Source: Halapricum desulfuricans (lineage in GTDB: Archaea > Halobacteriota > Halobacteria > Halobacteriales > Haloarculaceae). From it: DNA of 64,000 nt. The position numbers and the translations under genes are program-made. The DNA is taken from NCBI RefSeq assembly GCF_017094525.1, contig NZ_CP064788.1, forward strand, positions 2,589,030 through 2,653,029, given 5' to 3'. Below the pieces are notes generated by a model. That model was not told the origin of the DNA. It saw only the letters and a list, made by a program, of their open reading frames with translations, and did not search any database. This document shows, one piece after another, positions 7,346 to 40,170 of the stretch (position 1 is its first letter; each line of letters begins with the position of its first letter).

Positions 7346-7831
7346 ATGGACGAGCGCGACATCCGCATCCTGAAAGCGATCGCGGATCTGGGGACGGGGA
7401 GCCCGGACAGACTGCACGAGGAGACGGACATCCCGGTTTCGACGATCCACTACCGGCTGCAGAACCTCCGCGAAGAGGGGATCATCGAGAACGACCTCTA
7501 CGACTTCGACCTCTCGGAACTGGGACTTGACGTCACCGTCATCGTCGAGGTGCTGTCGGATTACAGCGACGATCACGACGTCGTCCTCGAGAAACTGGGC
7601 GATATCGAGGGCGTGACGCAGGTGTTCTCGACGATGGGCGAGACGGACTTCATCGTCATCGCCCGGTTGCCCGGGAGCGACGCCGTCGAGCGACTCATCC
7701 GGGACTTCGAGATGATCGATGAGGTCGACCGGACGAACTCGACGTACGTGATCTCGACCGATCGGGAGTTCACCCGCGGTATCGAGAGCTACAGTCTGGA
7801 GACGCTGGTCGAGACACTCGCCGAAGAGTGA
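7346..7831 (+). CDS. Lrp/AsnC family transcriptional regulator
   Basis: A 161-residue regulator, MDERDIRILKAIADLGTGSPDRLHEETDIPVSTIHYRLQNLREEGII, with a classic AsnC winged helix in residues 1-60. A RAM ligand-binding domain follows (VVLEKLGDIEGVTQVFSTMGETDFIVIARLPGSDAVERLI). Haloarchaeal relatives sense amino acids or glutamine. The 229-base spacer to the divergent DMT exporter is AT-rich (7190-7270), suited to a shared regulatory region, so control of the exporter is plausible but inferred. Confidence 0.92.
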   Translation: MDERDIRILKAIADLGTGSPDRLHEETDIPVSTIHYRLQNLREEGIIENDLYDFDLSELGLDVTVIVEVLSDYSDDHDVVLEKLGDIEGVTQVFSTMGETDFIVIARLPGSDAVERLIRDFEMIDEVDRTNSTYVISTDREFTRGIESYSLETLVETLAEE

Positions 7832-7840
7832 TGCTGGTGG

Positions 7841-8434
7841 CTATTCGAGTTGCACGTTGTCCAGGACACCGGCAGCGCCGGTCTCCCAGATGATGCTGAA
7901 CCCGACCGCGACCAGTCCGGTCCCGTCGTGGTCGACGTCGTACTCGTAGGTCTTCCAGCCTTCGTGGTCCCACAGCGAGTGGTCTCGGTTGAAGTCCGTC
8001 TCCACGAGTCCGTCTTCGGGGACCGGCCCGGTGTAGGTCGCGACCTGCAGGACGGTGGTGAACGAGTTCTGTTCGCTGTAACCGTCGACTTTCAGCGTCG
8101 AGACCTCCGAGAGGTCGACTTCCTGCTGGACCCAGACCGTCCCGTCGTCGGCGCTCCCGTCGATGAAGATCTCGATGCCCTGCTGGCCGTCCGAGGCGCG
8201 GTCGGCCGTCGTGACGCTCGCGTCGACCTTCTGACCGGGGTTGCCCGGCTCGTCAGGCAGATCGGTATCGACGTACCACCTCTCGAGCCCGTACTCGAAA
8301 CTGCCGTCGACGAGTTCATCCGACGGCGTCGACGTGTCGGTCGGGTCGTCGTCGGACGGTTCGTCGTCACCGGAGCAGCCGGCCAGCAACGCGGCGACCG
8401 AGGCTGTTCCGGCGAGGAAGTATCGTCGTTTCAC
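7841..8434 (-). CDS. Secreted Tat lipoprotein, possible carbohydrate-binding-like domain
   Basis: A 197-residue protein starting MKRRYFLAGTASVAALLAGCSGD. It has a twin-arginine signal with lipobox LLAGC, so it should be lipid-anchored outside the cell. An Asp/Ser/Thr-rich tether follows. The mature part (LVDGSFEYGLERWYVDTDLP ... WVQQEVDLSEVSTLKVDGYSEQ ... AAGVLDNVQLE) has the beta-sandwich pattern of domains that bind carbohydrates or decorate glycosidases: the NG(G)FE..W opening and a closing DNV strand. No enzyme is attached. Function is a structural inference. Confidence 0.75.
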   Translation of the reverse strand: MKRRYFLAGTASVAALLAGCSGDDEPSDDDPTDTSTPSDELVDGSFEYGLERWYVDTDLPDEPGNPGQKVDASVTTADRASDGQQGIEIFIDGSADDGTVWVQQEVDLSEVSTLKVDGYSEQNSFTTVLQVATYTGPVPEDGLVETDFNRDHSLWDHEGWKTYEYDVDHDGTGLVAVGFSIIWETGAAGVLDNVQLE

Positions 8435-27303: not shown

Positions 27304-27948
27304 TTACGAACACTCGATCTCGCCAGGATTGACGCTTCCGATTGCTGTCGCGGGTCCGTCCCCGTTATCGCACTTTTTATATGTCATATTAGTCGAGTCG
27401 ACGTACACGGCAGTAATCGATCCATCTTGGTCTTTGAGCTGATTGCCGTTCAAAGAGTCGCCTGTGAATTCCTGAGGGACGTTTTCCGTCCAGTAGGTCC
27501 CGCTTGCATCGGCAACAGTGATGAGTGCGTTGCCACTTTTTCCGGGGAATGCCACGACCCGATTATTCGGAATCTGACACTCCGTCGGCACGGACCGATC
27601 GAGTTCGGCGGAGATTCCGTCCCCTTCGACAGTAACGGTAACGGGGTCTTCAGACTCGACGCTGATGAAGCTGGTCGTCACGTCTTCCCCGGATCCGAGA
27701 GGGTCTAATTCTCTCTCGGTATCGTCGACAGTCACTGTTACCGTAACGTCGCTATCGAACCGATTCGTGATCGTTATCTCGAACCCTTCTCCATCACATT
27801 CGTCCGCATAACCGACGTACGCCTCCTCGTCACCGGCCACGGAGACGGAGACCCCCCGGTCGGCCGACATCGCGCTGAACCCGCCAGTCCCGAGTATCAG
27901 CAGGACGGCGAGCGCGAGCAGCGCGGCGTAGGCCCAGCGACGGACCAT
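27304..27948 (-). CDS. Exported DUF1102/TasA-like surface protein A
   Basis: A 214-residue protein with an N-terminal hydrophobic signal (RRWAYAALLALAVLLILGTGGFSAMSA). It is followed at the likely cleavage point by DRGVSVSVAGDEEAYVGY, the same opening as the proteins at 29007 and 29774. The mature part is beta-rich (FEITITNRFDSDVTVTVTVDDTERELDPL), as expected for a TasA/camelysin-type beta-sandwich, with Cys near the end. It is translated after the membrane-bound regulator, with a single base between. GC content is lower than in neighbours. Confidence 0.7.
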   Translation of the reverse strand: MVRRWAYAALLALAVLLILGTGGFSAMSADRGVSVSVAGDEEAYVGYADECDGEGFEITITNRFDSDVTVTVTVDDTERELDPLGSGEDVTTSFISVESEDPVTVTVEGDGISAELDRSVPTECQIPNNRVVAFPGKSGNALITVADASGTYWTENVPQEFTGDSLNGNQLKDQDGSITAVYVDSTNMTYKKCDNGDGPATAIGSVNPGEIECS

Positions 27949-27949
27949 G

Positions 27950-28600
27950 TCACTCCCTCACTTCTGGCGGACTCTCGGAGTCACCCAGTCGCATCTCGGT
28001 ACGACTGTAGTACGTGTGGACGAGCGCGGACACGAGAAACGTCGTCGCGACGAACAGTCCCCACCCGGCGTCCGGGACGAGCCGGAGGGGGTAGGTCCCT
28101 GCCGTGGCGGCGACGAGCAGCCCGAGGTTTACGGCCGCGAGCCCGAGGTAATACTGGCTCCAGGGGACGTCGTTGCCCTCGACGACCTCGAGATAGACGT
28201 CCATCTGTTCGGCGGCGGGCGTGAGCTCAACAACGCCCTCACGGTCGTCGAACTCGACGACGCCCTTGTCGTCCATCTTCGGCAGGTGGAACTGCTGGAG
28301 GGAGGTGTAGACGCGCTTGCGCTCGCTGGCGGAGATCTCCTGGACGCCGCTGTCGTTCTCCCAGGCGGCGACGTGCTCGGAGAGCTCGCCCAGCTCCGCG
28401 CGCTCGCCGTTGTGCTGGAGGTGGTGCAGCGCGAACCGACGCCGACGGTTGCTGAGTATCTCGAACGCGTCGTCCCGGGAGAGCTCCGGCTCCGGCGACG
28501 CACTGCGTTCGTCCTTTCCCTGCGCGCCGTCGTCCGGTCCCACTCCGGCGACGGATTGCCCGTCTGTCGAGGCCGTAACGGCCTCGGTCTTGCTTGCCAT
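27950..28600 (-). CDS. Winged-helix regulator with two transmembrane helices (DUF7344 type)
   Basis: A ~216-residue protein. An acidic Ser-rich N-terminus leads to a winged-helix domain (LSRDDAFEILSNRRRRFALHHLQHNGERAELGELSEHVAAWEN ... VYTSLQQFHLPKMDDKGVVEFDDREGVVELTP), the haloarchaeal DUF7344 pattern. Two membrane helices (YYLGLAAVNLGLLVAATAGTYPL and GLFVATTFLVSALVHTYY) make it a membrane-tethered DNA-binding protein. It is the first gene of the minus-strand pair and probably senses or controls the surface-protein locus. A TATA-like GATAAATG lies near 28622. Confidence 0.8.
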   Translation of the reverse strand: MASKTEAVTASTDGQSVAGVGPDDGAQGKDERSASPEPELSRDDAFEILSNRRRRFALHHLQHNGERAELGELSEHVAAWENDSGVQEISASERKRVYTSLQQFHLPKMDDKGVVEFDDREGVVELTPAAEQMDVYLEVVEGNDVPWSQYYLGLAAVNLGLLVAATAGTYPLRLVPDAGWGLFVATTFLVSALVHTYYSRTEMRLGDSESPPEVRE

Positions 28601-29006
28601 AAGGGCCCACCTACGTGTCAGACATTTATCTCCAACCAAACAAAAAGGTATTGGTCAGTACAATATTCCCCCTCGGTGAACGGTTCTAAACGGTTGTATT
28701 CGGAGATTTTCTATAATCTCGGGTTAGTGTTTGGTAATTCACCATAGAATAATATTGTCCTAATATATTCGACTGTGATATCTCGTGATTTCAGGCACCG
28801 TTTGGGCCGGGCGACAGCGGTTCAAAGACTGTAATCCGGAATTTCTGGGGGAGCCAGCAGGTCAGTCAAGCGGGTCAATACAAGGTGGGAAGGGCCACTG
28901 TTGTCGAGCAAGCGCGCCCCGGGACCACGATCAGGCCGGTGACGCCGAACGGTCGGTGTCGAAGTAGGTGGGGTTCGGGGGCGTGCGGACAAGAGGTAGA
29001 CCAACC
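28601..29006. promoter_or_regulatory. Regulatory spacer of the surface-protein locus
   Basis: This 406-base stretch separates the divergent regulator and first plus-strand DUF1102 gene. Its left half (28620-28790) is unusually AT-rich for this genome and contains the direct repeat AACGGTT at 28679 and 28689. The right half is GC-rich and may be a 5' leader of the plus-strand transcript. No coding frame with normal codon use is present. Confidence 0.5.
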
Positions 29007-29651
29007 ATGACAAAACGACGCAAGTTCCTGCTCGGAATGGGATCGCTCGCTGCCGGTGGGGCAGCTGCAATGGGAAGTGGCGCGTTCACGAGTGTGCAGG
29101 CGGAACGGGGTATCACAGTGGAGACCGCAAATGATGCTAATGGGCTCCTCGGTATCGAACCGTACCCGAGTGGTGACCTTGGTGAAAATCCCAGCTATAC
29201 TGATGACGACGGCAACGGCAACGGAGAGTACGCAGAGGCTGTCGACGGTGAGATTGTGTTAGATTTCACCGAGACCACTGGTTCCGACGACGAGGACACT
29301 GGGCTGAACGAGAACGCGAAAACTAATATCGAAAACGTCCTCAAAATTACCAACAACGGTACGCAGGATGTCTACGTGACCGTCAAAGTCACGGACACCG
29401 ACGATAATACCGGGACGGCAGCTGTCGGTCTGTCGGAGTTCGGCGTCTCCGGGGACCCCGATGTCGACTTCGCTCGACTCGCCGGCAGTTACGATGGCGA
29501 TAAGCTTCCAGCTGGAGACTCCGCTGGCATGGGATTCTACTTCTTCCTCGACGAAGACAAGAGCTACGAGGACATTATCAATGATATCGACACGATTACT
29601 ATCGTTGCCGCGGAGAGTAAAAGCGCATTAGATCGGTACAGGCCTGATTAA
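29007..29651 (+). CDS. Tat-exported DUF1102-like surface protein B
   Basis: A ~214-residue protein starting MTKRRKFLLGMGSLAAGGAA. It has a twin-arginine type signal, and the probable cleavage follows FTSVQA. The mature protein begins ERGITVETANDANGLLGIEP, the DUF1102 opening. A beta-rich domain follows with ENVLKITNNGTQDVYVTVKVTDTD, the strand-turn motif that TasA/camelysin-like proteins share, and an Asp-rich loop. Length and architecture match a filament subunit assembled outside the cell. It is the first of two tandem paralogues. Confidence 0.78.
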   Translation: MTKRRKFLLGMGSLAAGGAAAMGSGAFTSVQAERGITVETANDANGLLGIEPYPSGDLGENPSYTDDDGNGNGEYAEAVDGEIVLDFTETTGSDDEDTGLNENAKTNIENVLKITNNGTQDVYVTVKVTDTDDNTGTAAVGLSEFGVSGDPDVDFARLAGSYDGDKLPAGDSAGMGFYFFLDEDKSYEDIINDIDTITIVAAESKSALDRYRPD

Positions 29652-29773
29652 TCCAACGAGTGCCCGCAGAGAGTCGGACACACCAACGCATCGGTTCAAC
29701 GATTGGAGAACGCCCACGCTGGCGCACGGCGGTTCGATTCCGTCGGTGGGTTTCCCCGTAGGTGGGGTCACAT

Positions 29774-30937
29774 ATGAAACGACGCAACGTACTGGCTGCG
29801 CTCGGTTCGCTCAGTGCCGGCGGAGCCCTCACAGTCGGATCGGGCGCGTTCACCAGCGTTAGCGCAGACCGAGCAGTGACTGTCGATGTCGTCGGTGACG
29901 CCGATGCCTTCCTTCGACTCGCACCCTGTGATGGATCGTCGAACGGCGACTACGTCGCGAACGCCTCGGAGGGAGCGATGGCTATCGACCTCGCGGATGG
30001 TGACAGTAACGTTGCCGGCAGTGGCGTCAATCCCGAAGCACATTCGGTGTTCCACAACGTCTTCGAGATCTGCAACCAGGGGACTCAGCCAGTGTGTGTC
30101 GACTTCGCGGTCGACGTGCCGTCGATTCCCGGTCCAGTTCCGGATCGGTACGGGTTTGAAGAGGGGGACCCAGCAGTCGTCTTCTATCGGGCGGACAATC
30201 CGGACGACACGGTCAACGTCGACGACCTCGATACGGACCGAAGCGGGGCGTTCCCTCTGGATGTCGGCGATTGCCAGTGTGTCGGATTCGAAGTCCGGGC
30301 ATTCGGCTTTGAATCAGGCGCGGATCTCTTCGGGGATACCGACCTCGAGATTCGCGCGCAGGCCAGTGCTAACTGTGGAAGCGAAGATGCGCCTCCAGGG
30401 TTGATCCCCCCGGAGCAGCTTCGTTTAGACACTGGCGGCGAACTAAACTGGCAGGAAACCTACTGGCAAGTCGTGAGTGGACCCGGGACAGATGGACCCG
30501 GGACAGAGGATACATCCTACCGCGCAAAGGTGGTGGATGACCCACCGAACGATTGGGACACGTCCTCCCCAGAGGCCTCGTGGGTCGATCCGTTCGGAAC
30601 GGGCGGACTGGACAGCGATCCAGCCGATGCAGAAGATCCGTATGTATATGAACTGGCCTTTTCTGTCCCTGCTACTTTTGACCTCGTCATGGAGGAATAC
30701 GGCTCCGATAACCCAGTCACGTTCCTCCTTGATGGTACAGAGATCGGGAGCAGCCCGGACGGAGAAGACGCGTACAACCCACTCAAGGACAATATCTCCA
30801 GCCAACAGATCGAAGCAGGAAACCACACTTTGCGAGCTGAGGTCATCAATGAGCCCCAATCGGGTACGTCTGTGACGGGGAATCCGACAGGATTGTTGGT
30901 CGCCGCGAGGCTTGAGCCTCCCCAAGAGCCTAACTAG
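29774..30937 (+). CDS. Tat-exported DUF1102-like surface protein C with extra beta domain
   Basis: A ~387-residue protein starting MKRRNVLAALGSLSAGGALT with mature start near DRAVTVDVVGDADAFLRLAP. Residues ~30-210 repeat the DUF1102 fold of the upstream gene (VFEICNQGTQPVCVDFAVDVP), with added Cys pairs (CDCQC-like DCQCVGFEVRAFG). From ~215 there is a second domain (WQVVSGPGTDGPGTEDTSYRAKVVDDPPNDW ... FLLDGTEIGSS ... HTLRAEVINEP), a jelly-roll pattern like carbohydrate-binding modules. The linker holds a 15-base tandem repeat at 30479-30508. It may be the tip or adhesive subunit. Confidence 0.75.
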   Translation: MKRRNVLAALGSLSAGGALTVGSGAFTSVSADRAVTVDVVGDADAFLRLAPCDGSSNGDYVANASEGAMAIDLADGDSNVAGSGVNPEAHSVFHNVFEICNQGTQPVCVDFAVDVPSIPGPVPDRYGFEEGDPAVVFYRADNPDDTVNVDDLDTDRSGAFPLDVGDCQCVGFEVRAFGFESGADLFGDTDLEIRAQASANCGSEDAPPGLIPPEQLRLDTGGELNWQETYWQVVSGPGTDGPGTEDTSYRAKVVDDPPNDWDTSSPEASWVDPFGTGGLDSDPADAEDPYVYELAFSVPATFDLVMEEYGSDNPVTFLLDGTEIGSSPDGEDAYNPLKDNISSQQIEAGNHTLRAEVINEPQSGTSVTGNPTGLLVAARLEPPQEPN

Positions 30938-30953
30938 CCACTGATAATCGGCG

Positions 30954-31103
30954 TCACTCCGCGTTTTCCAGGAAGATGATTTTCTGATACGCCTCTCTGA
31001 TGTGATACTTCGCGGTGTCGTCCTCCGCGTTTTCCAGTGCCTTTGCCAGGTGGCTCTGGAGCGACGAAAGATCAGCGTCGTTAGTCCGTTTTTTGATTGA
31101 CAT
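30954..31103 (-). CDS. 49-residue haloarchaeal small helical protein
   Basis: The frame reads MSIKKRTNDADLSSLQSHLA through KYHIREAYQKIIFLENAE. Short proteins ending in a KYHIREA...-like helix recur in haloarchaea, so this is likely real. Two amphipathic helices are predicted. It lies opposite to the surface-protein genes and interrupts their run. No function is known. Confidence 0.55.
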   Translation of the reverse strand: MSIKKRTNDADLSSLQSHLAKALENAEDDTAKYHIREAYQKIIFLENAE

Positions 31104-31340
31104 CCTGGTAGGAGCTTGGAACCAGATCCCCTTTGTAATGTCGTGCGTGTCTATCCTCAAGCAGCCTCTACTCGCAGTACAAACTGTGATAACAAATGCC
31201 ACGAAACTGGCGTCGCCGATCCCCGGCCAGCGGCCGGACAGTCGCGTTCAGACACTGTTTGAACCCCTTCTCGCGGATCAATACAAGGGACGTCCGGCCG
31301 GTACGTCTCTCGTACCGACAGTACCGTCGGCGGTCTGACC

Positions 31341-32180
31341 GTGACTCGAACGTCGCTCCTCGTCGCCGTGCTCGTCGCCTCGACAGCCCTGCTCGTCTCG
31401 ACCGGGGCGGTCCCGTTCTCGGACGGCACCGACGAGATCTCCGGAGTCAACATCGAGATGTCGCCGGCCGACGGCCCGAACGGCCAGTACGCCGTCATCG
31501 ACGAGACGGGCGAACTCGCACTGGTGTTGTCCGGTGAGAACCCCGACCTCGAGGTCGGCGGCGTTCCCGGCGACGCGGTCACGCCGCTCGATCGCGTGTT
31601 CACGATCACCTACACCGGCGACCTGTTCGCGCGCGTCTGGATCACCGACGACGCCGAGGACGTCCGATTCTATCGCGGGGGCGATCCTGACGAGACACTC
31701 GAAGGGTCTGACAACGCCGTCACGCTCGGCCCGAACGAGACGCTCAAGGTCGGGTTGCGCGTCGACACGCGCGGCGATCACGACGTCGAGAGCGCTTCGA
31801 CGTTCGGCGTGAGCGTCGAGCAGGCCACGCCTACCTCTGCGGAGATATCGGGAGATTCGTCGGCAGAGACACCGACGACCCAGACCGCAGTCGAGGCGCC
31901 GACGGAGTCGACGATGCCCCTCACGACAGAGACGACACAGCCGAGTAACAGCCCGACTGACGGCGAAGTCGGCAACGAGACGACAACCGAAGCCGGGCCG
32001 GTACCGCCCGTCGGTGCTGACACGACCACAGGAACGGCAACTGGCGGCGACGACTCACCCGCCGGCGGACTCCCGGCCGAGGTCGGTGGCTTCGACCTGG
32101 CCGTGGCTGTTCCCGCCCTCTCGTTGCTGGCGCTTGCGCTGCTCGCTCTGGCGTGGTACCGACGGCGGAGCGACCGGTAG
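31341..32180 (+). CDS. Membrane-anchored DUF1102-like surface protein D
   Basis: A 279-residue protein from a GTG start. It has an N-terminal signal (TSLLVAVLVASTALLVSTGAVPFS), then a mature beta-domain (INIEMSPADGPNGQYAVIDETGELALVLSGENPDLEVGGVPGDAVTPLDRVFTITYTGDLFARVWI). A ~100-residue Thr/Ser/Pro-rich stalk suited to O-glycosylation and a C-terminal transmembrane helix (LAVAVPALSLLALALLALAWYRRR) with a basic stop follow. It is probably the membrane base of the surface structure. It is the first gene of a plus-strand run with the rhomboid, signal peptidase and DUF5305 genes. Confidence 0.78.
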   Translation: MTRTSLLVAVLVASTALLVSTGAVPFSDGTDEISGVNIEMSPADGPNGQYAVIDETGELALVLSGENPDLEVGGVPGDAVTPLDRVFTITYTGDLFARVWITDDAEDVRFYRGGDPDETLEGSDNAVTLGPNETLKVGLRVDTRGDHDVESASTFGVSVEQATPTSAEISGDSSAETPTTQTAVEAPTESTMPLTTETTQPSNSPTDGEVGNETTTEAGPVPPVGADTTTGTATGGDDSPAGGLPAEVGGFDLAVAVPALSLLALALLALAWYRRRSDR

Positions 32181-32228
32181 AGACCGTCAGGAATAGGTCA
32201 GTCGCCCGTCACTCCCGAAACGAAACAG

Positions 32229-33143
32229 ATGGACGACGACTCTCGGTCGAGGAGCGCGGACCCCCTGGGGCGGACGATCCGCGAGCGTGCGGCCCCGGCC
32301 GACCTGCTGTTGCTCTCGATCGCTCCCGCCGTCCTGCTGGCGGTCTACGCCCTGCCGACCGCGACCCGGGAGGCGCTCGTTTTCGAGTACGCGGCTCCGA
32401 CCGTCCGGACCGCGGTCGCGTCCCCGTTCGTCCACTTCAGGTGGTCACACCTGCTGTTCAACCTCGGTGGCTACGTGCTGGTCGCGGGGACGGCCTACGT
32501 CCTGAGCGTCGCGGCCGATCGTCGCCGCGAGTTCGTGATCGTCTTCGCGTCGCTGCTGCTCGCCAGCCCGCCACTGCTGTCGGCGCTCAATCTCACGATC
32601 GTCAGACGCGGCGTCGCGTACGGGTTCTCCGGCGTGGTGATGGTCTACTACGGGACGCTCGCGATCGCGATCGCCGTGCACGCCCAACAGCGCCTGGACG
32701 TGAGCGACGCCCGGAGCGTCGCCCCGCTGCTGTTCTTTCTCGGACTGCTTGTCGTGACTACACAGACGCTCCGGGCGGTGCTCGGCCGCCCCGTCACGGT
32801 CGCCGTCGAGGGGGTTCCCACGTCGGTCACGTGGGTGCTCGTGGCGACGCTCGCGGAGTTGCTGGTGCTTCTGGCGCTGGTCGTGACGCTGTACGCGCTG
32901 TCGATTGCCGACGGCGACCCGATCGGGCGACAACTGCGGGCGGCCGTCGAACGGAGCGGCGACGCCGAACTCGCCGTCAGCGCTCTGCTCCTGTTTCTGG
33001 CGGTCCCGTTCGCGACGTTCCCGCCCGATCCCGTCTCCGGAACCCGGGTGTTCAACCTCTACGTTCACGCGGTCGGGTACGCGCTAGGCTTTATCGCCGC
33101 CTACCTCTATCACGTACTCGGGCGCAGCGGGGATCGCAGCTGA
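32229..33143 (+). CDS. Rhomboid-like intramembrane serine protease
   Basis: A 304-residue membrane protein with six to seven helices. Rhomboid features are visible: H69 and H74/N78 in FVHFRWSHLLFNLGGYV (the H-x3-H-x3-N type motif of helix 2), the nucleophile motif G-F-S134-G, and a His at about 280 in the last helix (NLYVHAVGYALGFIAAYL). These are the expected Ser-His dyad positions. Such enzymes cut within membrane anchors. Placement between an anchored surface protein and a signal peptidase suggests it releases or matures that protein. Confidence 0.75.
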   Translation: MDDDSRSRSADPLGRTIRERAAPADLLLLSIAPAVLLAVYALPTATREALVFEYAAPTVRTAVASPFVHFRWSHLLFNLGGYVLVAGTAYVLSVAADRRREFVIVFASLLLASPPLLSALNLTIVRRGVAYGFSGVVMVYYGTLAIAIAVHAQQRLDVSDARSVAPLLFFLGLLVVTTQTLRAVLGRPVTVAVEGVPTSVTWVLVATLAELLVLLALVVTLYALSIADGDPIGRQLRAAVERSGDAELAVSALLLFLAVPFATFPPDPVSGTRVFNLYVHAVGYALGFIAAYLYHVLGRSGDRS

Positions 33144-33194
33144 TCCAGGCCACACCCATCAGGTATTTATCACGACGGCCGCAACGAGACGGTA

Positions 33195-34340
33195 ATGGAC
33201 TGGCGGGGGACAGCCACGAAAGCCGTGGGTGCGGTGCTCGCACTCGCGCTCGTCGCGCTCGTCGTCGGCCAGTTGCTCGGCCAGCCGGTCCTGTTGAGTT
33301 ACGTCACCACCGGGAGCATGGAGCCGACGATCGGTACCGGTGACGGTTTCGTCGCGGTTCCGTCGGCGGTCGCGGGCCCGATTGAGGAGGGCGACGTCGT
33401 CGTGTTCGAGGCAGAGGAGATCCAGGGCGGTGGGCTCACGACACACCGCGTCGTCGGGGAGACCGACCGCGGGTTCGTCACGCGAGGGGACGCCAACCCG
33501 TTCACCGATCAGGACGGTGGCGAGCCACCGGTCAAGCGCGAACAGATCGTCGCCGTCGCCTGGCAGGTCGGCGACGAGCCGGTCGTGATCCCGCATCTTG
33601 GGACGGTCGCCGAGGGAGTTCAGGGGGGTGTCGAGACGCTCCAGTTCCGTCTGGCCGGCCTGCTGGGGACGCGCTCGCTGCTCGGCACGCAGGGGTTCGG
33701 CTATCTCATCTTCGGTCTGACGGTCCTCCTGTACGCGATCGACGTCTTCCTCAGCAGCGACCGGCGACGGGATCGGGCTCGCGAGCGCGATAGCGGGCTC
33801 AGCGCCCGCGTCGTGGTCGGCGCGATGGCGGCGTCGCTAATGCTGGCAGCGACGGCTGCCATGGTCGCTCCGGCCGGGCCGCAGTCGTTCGAGATCGTCA
33901 GCTCCGAGTTCGAGTCCGAGCGGTCGGACGTCATCGAGGCCGGAACGAACGAATCGCTACAGTTCACGGTCGGCAACGGCGGGCAGGTGCCCGTCTACGT
34001 CTACTTCGAGGAAGGCAGCGAAAACATCGATATCGAGCCCGACCGGTTCGAGGTCGGCGGCAACGAGCTGGTCAACGGCACGCTCACGCTCACCGCACCA
34101 CCCGAGACCGGGTCGTATCGGCTGTTCCTGACCGAACACAGATATCTCGCGCTGCTACCCGAATCACAGGTTCGAGCCCTCTATTCGGTTCATCCGTGGC
34201 TGCCGATCGTCGTCATCGACGCGCTGATCGGGGTCCCCTTCTACCTCGCTGGGATCGCGCTCGTCGGCACGGAACGGGTGCGCCGACGCGACAGAGAGGG
34301 GCCATCGACGAGCGATCGGATCCTCGCACGGTTGCGATAA
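33195..34340 (+). CDS. SipW/ER-type signal peptidase I with extra C-terminal membrane domain
   Basis: A 381-residue protein. After one helix, TTGSMEP has the catalytic Ser41, and TTHRVVGETDRGFVTRGDANP supplies His84 in place of the bacterial Lys, the SipW/SEC11 Ser-His type. A region of ~190 further residues is not part of the minimal enzyme: a second helix (GYLIFGLTVLLYAIDVFL), a third (VVVGAMAASLMLAATAAMVAP), an exterior beta-domain (FEIVSSEFESERSDVIEAGTNESLQFTVGNGGQVPVYVYFEEG) and a last helix. The beta-domain resembles its putative substrates. It probably processes the DUF1102-like proteins. Confidence 0.88.
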   Translation: MDWRGTATKAVGAVLALALVALVVGQLLGQPVLLSYVTTGSMEPTIGTGDGFVAVPSAVAGPIEEGDVVVFEAEEIQGGGLTTHRVVGETDRGFVTRGDANPFTDQDGGEPPVKREQIVAVAWQVGDEPVVIPHLGTVAEGVQGGVETLQFRLAGLLGTRSLLGTQGFGYLIFGLTVLLYAIDVFLSSDRRRDRARERDSGLSARVVVGAMAASLMLAATAAMVAPAGPQSFEIVSSEFESERSDVIEAGTNESLQFTVGNGGQVPVYVYFEEGSENIDIEPDRFEVGGNELVNGTLTLTAPPETGSYRLFLTEHRYLALLPESQVRALYSVHPWLPIVVIDALIGVPFYLAGIALVGTERVRRRDREGPSTSDRILARLR

Positions 34341-34387
34341 CGGGACCGACGACAGCCTTAATATCAACGCGTTGAATGCTAAACGTG

Positions 34388-35665
34388 ATGGAAGAACGGG
34401 GTCTCCGCGTCCGGGCTGTCCTCGACCGATATTTCAGTATCGCTGTGCTGGCGCTCGCGGTCCTGATCGTCGTCGGCGGAGGGGTCGCATACGCCGCACA
34501 CACCGGGCCGGACGAACGGACCGAGACGACGACCGAGACGGTGATCCTCTGGAACTCGACCGGACAGTTCAGCCACGAGGCGACGGTCGTCGAGGACACC
34601 AGAGTCTTCGAGGCGGGCGAGACGCTGACGAACCGCTCTCAGTACTTCCAGCGGATCGCACCCACTCTCGAAGGGGCGTTCGTCTACGACTACGAGGCCG
34701 AGAGCGGTTCGGTCGCGGCGAACGCGTCGATGGCGCTGGTCATCCGTTCGGTCACCGAGGACGGAACCGAGCAATGGCGGGTCACGGAGTCGCTCGAGCG
34801 GGCAGACCGAACGCTCGGACCCGGCGATCCCCTCCGCTTGACGTTCGAGCAGAACGTCACCGTGGTGGAAGCCGAGCTAACGGAGATCCGGTCCGAACTC
34901 GGGGCGACCGCCGGCACCGCGGAGACGTTCTTCGAGGTGACGGTGCGTCTCGACGGAAGCCGGAGCGGTGAGCCGGTCGAGACGACCCGGTCCTACCGGC
35001 TCCCACTCACGATCGAAGACGGGCTCTATCGCGTCAACGACACCGGCCCCGTCGTGCACGAGGGCGAGCGAACGGTCCGCGACGAGCGGACAGTGCCGGT
35101 CACGGTCGGTCCGATCCGGACGTACGGCGGCCCGCTGCTCGCTGTTCTCGGACTCGCAGGCTTGGCTGGACTGGTCGCCGGCCGCTGGCGGGGCTGGCTT
35201 GCGGTCAGCGAGCAGGAGCGTGACTACCTGTCCTACCGGTCGGAGCGCCGCGAGTTCGACGAGTGGATCACCGAGGTCAGGCGACCGGCAGATCGGATCG
35301 CCGACGCCGACAATCAGGCCGAAACGACGTCGCTCGCTGGACTGGTCGATCTGGCGATCGATACCGACCGGCGAGTGCTCGAAACGCCCGACGAACGGTA
35401 TCTGGTCTTCGAGGACGACGTCGTCTACAGGTACGAGCCGCCTGACGTATCTGTCGGAGACCGTGATCCGCTTGCGACGGCCGCTGAGACAGACGGTTCG
35501 TCCGGGTTGTCTGACTCGATCGGGAGCCTCCTCGACGGCGACCGCGACGTATCAGAGACGGACGACGGAGAATCGGGGACTGACGAGGCTGATACGCAAT
35601 CGGATTCCGACAGCATTGATCGATCTGAATCCGTCAGCGACGACGCACGGGACGTCGAACGGTGA
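34388..35665 (+). CDS. DUF5305 membrane protein
   Basis: A ~425-residue protein. An N-terminal helix (LDRYFSIAVLALAVLIVVGGGVAYAAH) precedes an exterior beta-rich domain of ~200 residues (TETVILWNSTGQFSHEATVVEDTRVFEAGETLTNRSQYFQRIAPTLEGAFVYDY), the DUF5305 hallmark. A second helix (GGPLLAVLGLAGLAGLVAGRW) leads to an acidic cytosolic tail. DUF5305 genes commonly sit with SipW-type peptidases in haloarchaea, as here (47 bases apart). GCCTTAATATC near 34356 may be an internal promoter, so I prefer the second ATG (34388). Its function is unknown; an assembly platform is a guess. Confidence 0.82.
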   Translation: MEERGLRVRAVLDRYFSIAVLALAVLIVVGGGVAYAAHTGPDERTETTTETVILWNSTGQFSHEATVVEDTRVFEAGETLTNRSQYFQRIAPTLEGAFVYDYEAESGSVAANASMALVIRSVTEDGTEQWRVTESLERADRTLGPGDPLRLTFEQNVTVVEAELTEIRSELGATAGTAETFFEVTVRLDGSRSGEPVETTRSYRLPLTIEDGLYRVNDTGPVVHEGERTVRDERTVPVTVGPIRTYGGPLLAVLGLAGLAGLVAGRWRGWLAVSEQERDYLSYRSERREFDEWITEVRRPADRIADADNQAETTSLAGLVDLAIDTDRRVLETPDERYLVFEDDVVYRYEPPDVSVGDRDPLATAAETDGSSGLSDSIGSLLDGDRDVSETDDGESGTDEADTQSDSDSIDRSESVSDDARDVER

Positions 35666-35699
35666 CGGCGATTTCCGCTCGAGAGGCTGTGACCGACTG

Positions 35700-35780
35700 A
35701 TACGGTCGGTTGTAACGATCTACCGGTACGATCGCATACCGGGTGCGATCGACCCGGAACAGACTTACAACCGACCGTAT
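35700..35780. repeat. 81-bp palindromic element, family 1, copy A
   Basis: The element is bounded by perfect 16-bp inverted repeats, ATACGGTCGGTTGTAA and its complement, around an inner GATCGCAT...GTGCGATC palindrome. The reverse complement of the copy at 40053-40133 matches over all 81 positions with five differences. It begins 34 bases after the DUF5305 stop. No coding capacity is present. It behaves like a MITE-type or REP-like repeat and could also act as a transcript-end hairpin. Confidence 0.85.
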
Positions 35781-35891
35781 GACACTGGTGGCGATACCAT
35801 TTCGAACTGATCCGACACGCCGTCGTGCCGGATGTCTTTCCGAACGGATAGCCACCAGTGTGAACAACCGGGACTGCGTCGCAGAAGCGGA

Positions 35892-35909
35892 CCGGGCGCG
35901 ATTTGAACC
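35892..35909 (-). repeat. tRNA-Lys 3'-end copy 1 (probable att scar)
   Basis: CCGGGCGCGATTTGAACC repeats the T-arm and part of the acceptor of the intact tRNA-Lys at 36152. It heads a ~125-base unit that is repeated, diverged, from 36017. It has no anticodon or D arm, so it is not a gene. Confidence 0.7.
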
Positions 35910-36012
35910 GGAGGAAGACGGTCGCTCACTTCGTTCGCGCTGCGACTTCCAGGGTGCAAATCGCTTCGGCAACGTACAGCAACCGCTCGCGATTTTGCTC
36001 GCGGTAAAAGTA

Positions 36013-36040
36013 CGGGCCGGGCGCGATTTGAACCACGCGA
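36013..36040 (-). repeat. tRNA-Lys 3'-end copy 2 (probable att scar)
   Basis: This segment repeats the tRNA-Lys acceptor and T-arm with one extra base in the T-arm, which would spoil the stem. Sequence between this copy and the intact tRNA is related to that between copies 1 and 2 (shared TTCAAATCG, CGGCAAC and CTCGCG blocks), showing a tandem duplication of about 125-139 bases. Confidence 0.7.
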
Positions 36041-36151
36041 AGACGGTCCTGCTCGCTCACGATGTTCGCTGCGCGGGCTGCAGCTTCTCTCATTCAAATC
36101 GCTCCGGCAACACACAGCAGTCGCTCGCGGTGTTGCGAGCGACAGCATGAA

Positions 36152-36225
36152 CGGGCCGGGCGCGATTTGAACACGCGACCGTCTGATTAAGAGTCAGACG
36201 CTCTGCCGGACTGAGCTACCGGCCC
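36152..36225 (-). tRNA. tRNA-Lys (anticodon CTT)
   Basis: A 74-base cloverleaf can be folded by eye: acceptor GGGCCGG/CCGGCCC, D-arm stem GCTC/GAGC, anticodon stem TCTGA/TCAGA with loop CTCTTAA giving anticodon CTT, T-stem GCGTG/CGCGC with loop TTCAAAT, and discriminator G. CCA is not encoded. No intron is present. Its 3' end is repeated twice further on in the minus direction, as happens where integrative elements have used the tRNA. Confidence 0.93.
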
Positions 36226-36404
36226 TCGCACTACGAGGTAACGGCAGGGCGGTAAAATAGGTTTCCTTTCGGGACTGTCGACGGACGGCGACGCGGTTCG
36301 ACACTCCGTGATTCGATGGGAGCCACGACTCGATCTCTCCTCGGGCGAGAGTCGCATGGCGTTGCCGGTGACGGCAGTCACATTGGTAATATCCCAACGG
36401 AGAT

Positions 36405-38425: not shown

Positions 38426-38504
38426 ATACTGCCGGCTGTAAGTTCGTAAAGATATTCGCCACCCTGGGTGGCGAATTCCTTCAGTGTGTTACAGCCGGCA
38501 GTAT
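38426..38504. repeat. 79-bp palindromic element, family 2, copy C
   Basis: Perfect 16-bp terminal inverted repeats, ATACTGCCGGCTGTAA and its complement, enclose an inner TTCGCCACC...GGTGGCGAA palindrome. The element at 54331-54410 is the same sequence in reverse orientation, with one indel in the loop and a few substitutions. The last base of the element is also the last base of the trm1 stop codon (read on the minus strand). Confidence 0.85.
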
Positions 38505-40040: not shown

Positions 40041-40052
40041 AGCAAGAGTCTC

Positions 40053-40133
40053 ATACGGTCGGTTGTAAGTCTGTTCCGGATCGATCGCATCCGTTATGCG
40101 ATCGCACCGGTAAATCGTTACAACCGACCGTAT
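40053..40133. repeat. 81-bp palindromic element, family 1, copy B
   Basis: This is the inverted counterpart of the element at 35700-35780: identical length, identical 16-bp ends, five substitutions. It starts 12 bases after the SWIM gene stop. A run of short hairpins follows it downstream. Confidence 0.85.
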
Positions 40134-40170
40134 CAAAGACGGCGCTGTATCTCCTCTCTACTGCGTCCTC

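Follow-up and report, generated by a model that had tools for sequence, protein, structure and literature searches.

Why an intramembrane protease should be encoded between a surface protein and a signal peptidase in a haloarchaeon is the question raised by the locus described here, which lies in a 64,000-nucleotide stretch of the Halapricum desulfuricans genome (in the following, the window). The reading that we favour, and regard as reasonably probable, is that the cluster holds a dedicated enzyme-substrate pair, in which the rhomboid would recognise and cut the tripartite C-terminal tail of the TafF-like surface protein, freeing it for release or re-anchoring. Rhomboids are already known, as are tripartite sorting tails and the taf (Tat-fimbria) cluster; the pairing of a haloarchaeal rhomboid with the tail motif appears to be new, and is likely an undescribed archaeal form of C-terminal sorting or release. 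A literature search that covered sources other than the text of the taf paper found no archaeal rhombosortase-like pair and no such motif. The natural substrates of archaeal rhomboids are, in two published accounts, proposed candidates only (PMC9263693, PMC11985538), and a rhomboid fixed beside a protein with a defined tail offers a direct, one-protein test of such a substrate. The pairing, if true, would give archaeal C-terminal protein sorting a branch based on a rhomboid and account for a fimbrial protein leaving, or staying at, the membrane; a rhomboid beside a tagged-tail protein, in a cluster for thin surface fibres of salt-loving archaea, suggests a new route by which proteins are cut free or re-anchored.

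The locus begins on the minus strand with a TafC-like secreted protein (27304..27948; NCBIfam TafC 35.3 bits, cut-off 410), divergent from the operon, and a DUF7344 protein (27950..28639; PF24035 107.7 bits), conserved beside taf clusters and a probable regulator. On the plus strand follow two TafE-like fimbrial subunits with twin-arginine leaders (28968..29651, TafE 68.3 bits against an equivalog cut-off of 155; 29762..30937, 61.3 bits), the TafF-like surface protein (31341..32180; TafF 63.7 bits, E 1.6e-17, equivalog cut-off 420), the rhomboid-fold intramembrane serine protease (32229..33143, 304 aa), an archaeal/ER-type signal peptidase I (33195..34340, 381 aa) and a DUF5305 membrane protein (34376..35665; PF17231 161.5 bits), the conserved final gene of the cluster. 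The first-pass annotation had placed the two proteases next to one another and directly behind the surface protein, and this layout holds: the TafF-like gene stops 48 bp before the rhomboid, 51 bp separate the rhomboid from the peptidase, and the DUF5305 gene starts after a gap of 35 bp. Terminator-like sites were sought in 30900-36400 and none was found; the TafF/rhomboid/peptidase region would form one transcript.

The setting, as far as sequence can tell, is a cluster related to the haloarchaeal Tat-fimbriae (taf) one, which was reportedly described by Galeva et al. 2025 in iScience (doi 10.1016/j.isci.2025.111793), and the surface protein is TafF-like within it. This assignment is made because of the matches to the Taf models, the twin-arginine leaders and the homology to the solved pilin 9p0a. 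The window shares with that cluster TafC-, TafE- and TafF-like proteins, whereas its own Taf-like members fall under the equivalog cut-offs given above. In the leader, R17 and R18 are invariant among 12 TafE-like relatives, as is the whole RRKF, and the profiles of the two subunits retrieve 9p0a with E 1.3e-29 (28968..29651) and 8.2e-13 (29762..30937). Thus 9p0a could serve as a template for a putative fibre of the twin-arginine subunits at 28968-30937, this homology being the one pointer to filament assembly at the locus. As a separate observation, DUF7344 genes flank not only taf clusters but also solo rhomboids (loci L046, L047 and L068), which suggests shared regulation.

That the rhomboid is very likely an active protease is concluded from the conservation of its catalytic and oxyanion positions together with its GlpG-like fold. 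Among 103 homologues, S134 (in GFSG; codon 32628-32630, plus strand), G132, H74 and H69 are each kept in all 103, N78 in 101, and H280 (codon 33066-33068) in 99%. Fold comparison was adopted because the profile of the rhomboid alignment, run against solved sequences, gave nothing convincing. The AlphaFold2 model (mean pLDDT 92.7, pTM 0.90) aligns by VIA-align with GlpG (6pja) at Z 14.1 and rmsd 2.9 over 165 residues, the first unrelated fold appearing at Z 6.7; Foldseek gives a probability of 1.00 for GlpG, with an E-value of only 0.16. The Ser-His residues on which the first-pass annotation had relied are therefore present and conserved, in a confident model of the GlpG fold, and residue conservation and fold match together rule out an annotation artefact as the origin of the finding. 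The Pfam model PF01694 scores the window's rhomboid at 18.1 bits, under its gathering score of 22.6, and matches 18 of 40 members of the family at E 0.01.

The candidate substrate has an N-terminal signal, a beta-domain, an acidic linker and a C-terminal anchor, so that the signal and the anchor previously ascribed to it were both found, the latter as a C-terminal helix with basic residues. The candidate recognition motif, E-V-G-G-F-D (residues 247-252; 32079..32096, plus strand), stands immediately ahead of the helix, which is followed by RRR at residues 275-277. More generally, the tail of a rhomboid-adjacent TafF consists of a variable acidic linker, E-x-[GSA]-G-[FIL]-[GDE], a hydrophobic stretch of about 18 residues and RR. 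In the alignment of 24 tails, some trimmed, taken from 36 non-redundant ones after setting aside long cytoplasmic ends, weak motifs and close copies, the Glu and one Arg never vary and the next Arg is kept in at least 90%. The profile derived from such tails finds that of the window's TafF with E 3.0e-12. Clusters with a rhomboid in Haloarcula and Halomicroarcula carry tails of the form E-L-[GA]-G-[FIL], and at L095, L099 and L107 rhomboid-adjacent TafF end in divergent versions of the tail, with E-L-A-G-F-G, a longer cytoplasmic end and no RR.

The motif is found in 53 of the 59 TafF that have a C-terminal helix and are encoded within 700 bp of a rhomboid. Four of the 58 rhomboid-adjacent TafF first examined (L037, L040, L042 and L043) lack the helix; the tail profile was built without them, and they are still counted as exceptions. 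At the level of genomes, with the 8 of 76 clusters whose TafF has no C-terminal helix set aside, the motif is present in 51 of 56 with a strong rhomboid vs 1 of 12 without (p 3e-8). When a genome lacks an intact rhomboid, its TafF often has the helix without the motif, as in 11 of the 12 helix-bearing cases. The lone motif-bearing exception, G289, contains what is left of a rhomboid, about 57 profile positions from its C-terminal part (L202, about 7730-7900), beside a TafF with a weakened motif, and is probably a case of recent rhomboid loss. Two genomes (G023 and G126) have motif-bearing taf clusters without an adjacent rhomboid, the rhomboid being encoded elsewhere; in G134, which has a near-motif, and in G233, the rhomboid is likewise elsewhere and the TafF motif is not kept.

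The arrangement itself recurs. At E 0.001, profile matches were found among 292 haloarchaeal genomes in 127 for the rhomboid, 243 for the peptidase and 200 for DUF5305; strong rhomboids (E 1e-15) occur in 89 of the 292, the limits between strong and weak (E 1e-15, score 200) having been set after the lists were inspected. The co-occurrence of the three genes, to which the first-pass annotation had pointed, is borne out: among 93 strong rhomboid genes, at loci taken mostly by rank of the rhomboid match and after dropping L191 as a repeat of L130, TafF lies directly upstream of 62 and the peptidase directly downstream of 55, with 52 flanked by both. The order TafF-rhomboid-peptidase is not due to chance. 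The gene-order analysis covered loci other than the short L132-L161, and layouts differ at L039, L041, L050 and L051. In 46 named loci new to the analysis, TafF accompanies 16 of 21 rhomboids and is found in 2 of 25 loci without one (p 2e-6), and the motif is present in 13 of 15 helix-bearing TafF adjoining a rhomboid and in 0 of 2 others. The search for related loci was keyed on the peptidase alignment; the absence of TafF from other clusters may partly reflect missed detection, because most of the clusters behind the TafF profile, which includes the tail, carry the rhomboid. Across 196 sampled genomes of the phylum, matches from orders other than that of the window remain below about 96 bits vs 200-350 for the rhomboid family.

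Rhomboids encoded outside taf often have neighbours with the same tail; these range from 297 to 2671 residues, PKD, CARDB, VWD or similar domains occur in some of them, and the rhomboids of the family there seem to act on tail-bearing surface proteins other than TafF. Among non-TafF proteins with a single C-terminal helix, the motif is found in 9 of 15 adjoining a rhomboid vs 1 of 21 others (p 4e-4). Three loci, L162-L164, had been noticed through tails beside a rhomboid and were included; when the test was repeated without them, the motif was present in 6 of 12 adjoining proteins (p 0.005). Loci L165-L181, obtained because of their tails, were excluded throughout this test. Three of the adjacent partners are 65-82% identical over long stretches and partners share modules, so that they are not independent and the independent cases are fewer than those counted. 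In the genome-wide search the tail profile, at E 1e-4, matched 63 of 292 genomes, 61 of them with a strong rhomboid: rhomboid and tail are both present in 61 genomes, the rhomboid alone in 28, the tail alone in 2 and neither in 201 (by genus 14, 11, 0 and 52, respectively), a result that is favoured by the derivation of the profile from rhomboid-adjacent tails. Some of the 28 of 89 strong-rhomboid genomes without a significant tail have near-motifs under the threshold.

Taken with the conserved tail and its distribution, the favoured pairing can be cast as a sequence of steps. TafF would be inserted with its C-terminus inside, and the Ser-His signal peptidase of the cluster would then remove its N-terminal signal; next, the rhomboid would cut near G-G-F, at the outward end of the C-terminal helix or slightly farther in, and TafF, thus off its helix, would be released into a fibre or transferred to another anchor. 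The first-pass annotation had proposed a two-step release of the protein at 31341. The action of the rhomboid on this protein gains indirect support from the tail shared beside rhomboids and from the near absence of the motif where no intact rhomboid is encoded; as to its outcome, release and lipid re-anchoring, as proposed for rhombosortase, are equally possible.

The re-anchoring branch leads to a special form of the favoured explanation, a tentative one, in which the rhomboid would act as a rhombosortase does, cutting the tail and joining the new C-terminus of TafF to a membrane lipid. The logic of gene pairing is the same as that by which the rhombosortase/GlyGly-CTERM system (TIGR03902/TIGR03501) was discovered, an enzyme beside a tail, as the original account describes it (PMC3237569): here too a rhomboid is encoded beside its proposed substrate, and several surface proteins share a tripartite tail in which a short motif is followed by a helix and basic residues. 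In published accounts, the cut that rhombosortase makes in VesB of Vibrio cholerae falls after glycine 383, inside the membrane segment, and the cut VesB is then surface-bound (PMC6219818, PMC11389362), its exposed glycine bearing a glycerophosphoethanolamine group (PMC6219818); in haloarchaea, archaeosortase substrates are described as lipid-anchored (PMC7157517). The enzyme speaks against the transfer: TIGR03902 gives the window's rhomboid 19 bits against a cut-off of 84, less than another rhomboid of the same genome (39.9 bits), and none of the 292 haloarchaeal genomes exceeds that cut-off, so that identity with rhombosortase is rejected by sequence and the rhomboid appears to have no specific closeness to it. 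The tails differ as well, with an invariant Glu before small-Gly-Phe/Ile/Leu in archaeal proteins, whereas GlyGly-CTERM is described as widespread among Proteobacteria and rare elsewhere (PMC3237569). TIGR03501 gives weak matches in 2 of 24 tails; the window tail alone scores 16.3 against a cut-off of 15.5, on the helix and RR only and not the motif (whole protein E 0.29), and nine tails scanned singly gave no NCBIfam tail model at cut-off. At L087 (8607-9161), where the rhomboid is solo, a neighbouring 184-aa protein has ALGGGSF ahead of its helix, a glycine-rich stretch that resembles GlyGly-CTERM more than it resembles the main motif.

The tail might instead be an ordinary membrane anchor and the motif a lineage signature, with a general or regulatory rhomboid merely travelling with the cluster. 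Such a reading seems unlikely, although the phylogeny leaves it some room: on the tree of 76 peptidases only 6 phylogenetically independent pairs exist, of which 3.4 link the motif to the presence of the rhomboid, 1.0 run the other way and 1.6 show no difference, so few events that a sign test is not significant, and the counts of motif and rhomboid given above are inflated because of the relatedness of the genomes. Rhomboids without neighbouring tails exist, and those of Haloferax volcanii are described as broadly affecting motility, adhesion and glycosylation (PMC9263693, PMC11985538). Counting against a lineage signature are the presence of the same motif, at a fixed spacing from RR, in proteins of very different length beside non-taf rhomboids, and the TafF that often keep the helix and not the motif when the rhomboid is missing. 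Less likely still is that archaeosortase A (ArtA) reads the tail as a variant of PGF-CTERM, with the rhomboid doing something else. Archaeosortase A/PGF-CTERM (TIGR04125/TIGR04126) also deals with tripartite tails of haloarchaeal surface proteins; ArtA, looked for in the window's and control genomes, is present in the former at 292.7 bits (cut-off 75), where it coexists with the rhomboid and tail, and tails such as EPGGFG resemble PGF. The PGF-pre-PGF domain TIGR04213 is shared, being over cut-off in one TafF (L102) and two partners (L068 and L105), which suggests an exchange of tails between proteins of the archaeosortase and the rhomboid type. At L109 (103-8378), a strong rhomboid gene shares a few bases with the gene of a 2466-aa protein whose tail is of the classical PGF-CTERM type (PGFG...RR), so that some members of the family may meet archaeosortase-type tails. 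Against ArtA stand the unrelated type of the enzyme, the failure of TIGR04126 to recognise these tails (1 of 24, with E 0.35, and none in the nine single-tail scans), the many tails with E-P-S-G-I and no PGF, and the fact that the motif tracks the rhomboid, itself a feature of only 89 of the 292 genomes. The broadest version of the rhomboid-TafF pairing, which we put forward with much reserve, would be a second haloarchaeal C-terminal sorting system beside archaeosortase, in which a rhomboid subfamily recognises and cuts tails with E-x-[GSA]-G-[FIL], carried by TafF and several large surface proteins, and re-anchors the products, while the peptidase carries a PapD-like pilus chaperone domain.

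The peptidase itself had been labelled 'SipW-type', of which the signal peptidase part stands: TIGR02228, for archaeal signal peptidase I, gives 56.7 bits (cut-off 51.85), the Ser-His pair S41 and H84 is kept in 18 of 18 sequences each (alignment A4, which is A3 without the wrong-frame row L082), and the nearest solved sequences are the signal peptidase complex subunits SEC11A and SEC11C. The SipW equivalog model NF046067 gives 32 bits, far under its cut-off of 190, and the enzyme is better called archaeal/ER-type. To our knowledge, the SipW/TasA/TapA system of Bacillus includes no rhomboid. Both cases share an ER-type signal peptidase devoted to fibre proteins, the role that SipW is described as having in Bacillus (PMC10269814), whereas the window's peptidase has an extra exterior domain. 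This beta-domain, noted in the first-pass annotation, is indeed present in the predicted model at residues 224-338, between two membrane helices (33864..34208, plus strand), where pLDDT is mostly about 80-88 vs 67 for the whole model. The folds that match it best are those of MSP/PapD-like Ig domains, pilus chaperones included (VAP-A 1z9o, Z 7.9; Caf1M, CupB2 and PapD, about Z 6), at a noise level that chance can produce; a chaperone-like domain is therefore possible. No TasA-like fold is among the matches listed, which is uninformative either way. As a lead, the MSP/PapD-like match weakly favours the earlier idea of a chaperone over that of a domain mimicking the substrates.

Downstream of the cluster, imperfect palindromes of about 80-90 bp occupy intergenic positions at 35698-35786, 40047-40135 and 38426-38504. 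A single typed DNA pattern for a suspected repeat had given no match; a repeat search revealed that the copies at 35698-35786 and 40047-40135 are 93% complementary to one another, and they are probably a small interspersed repeat.
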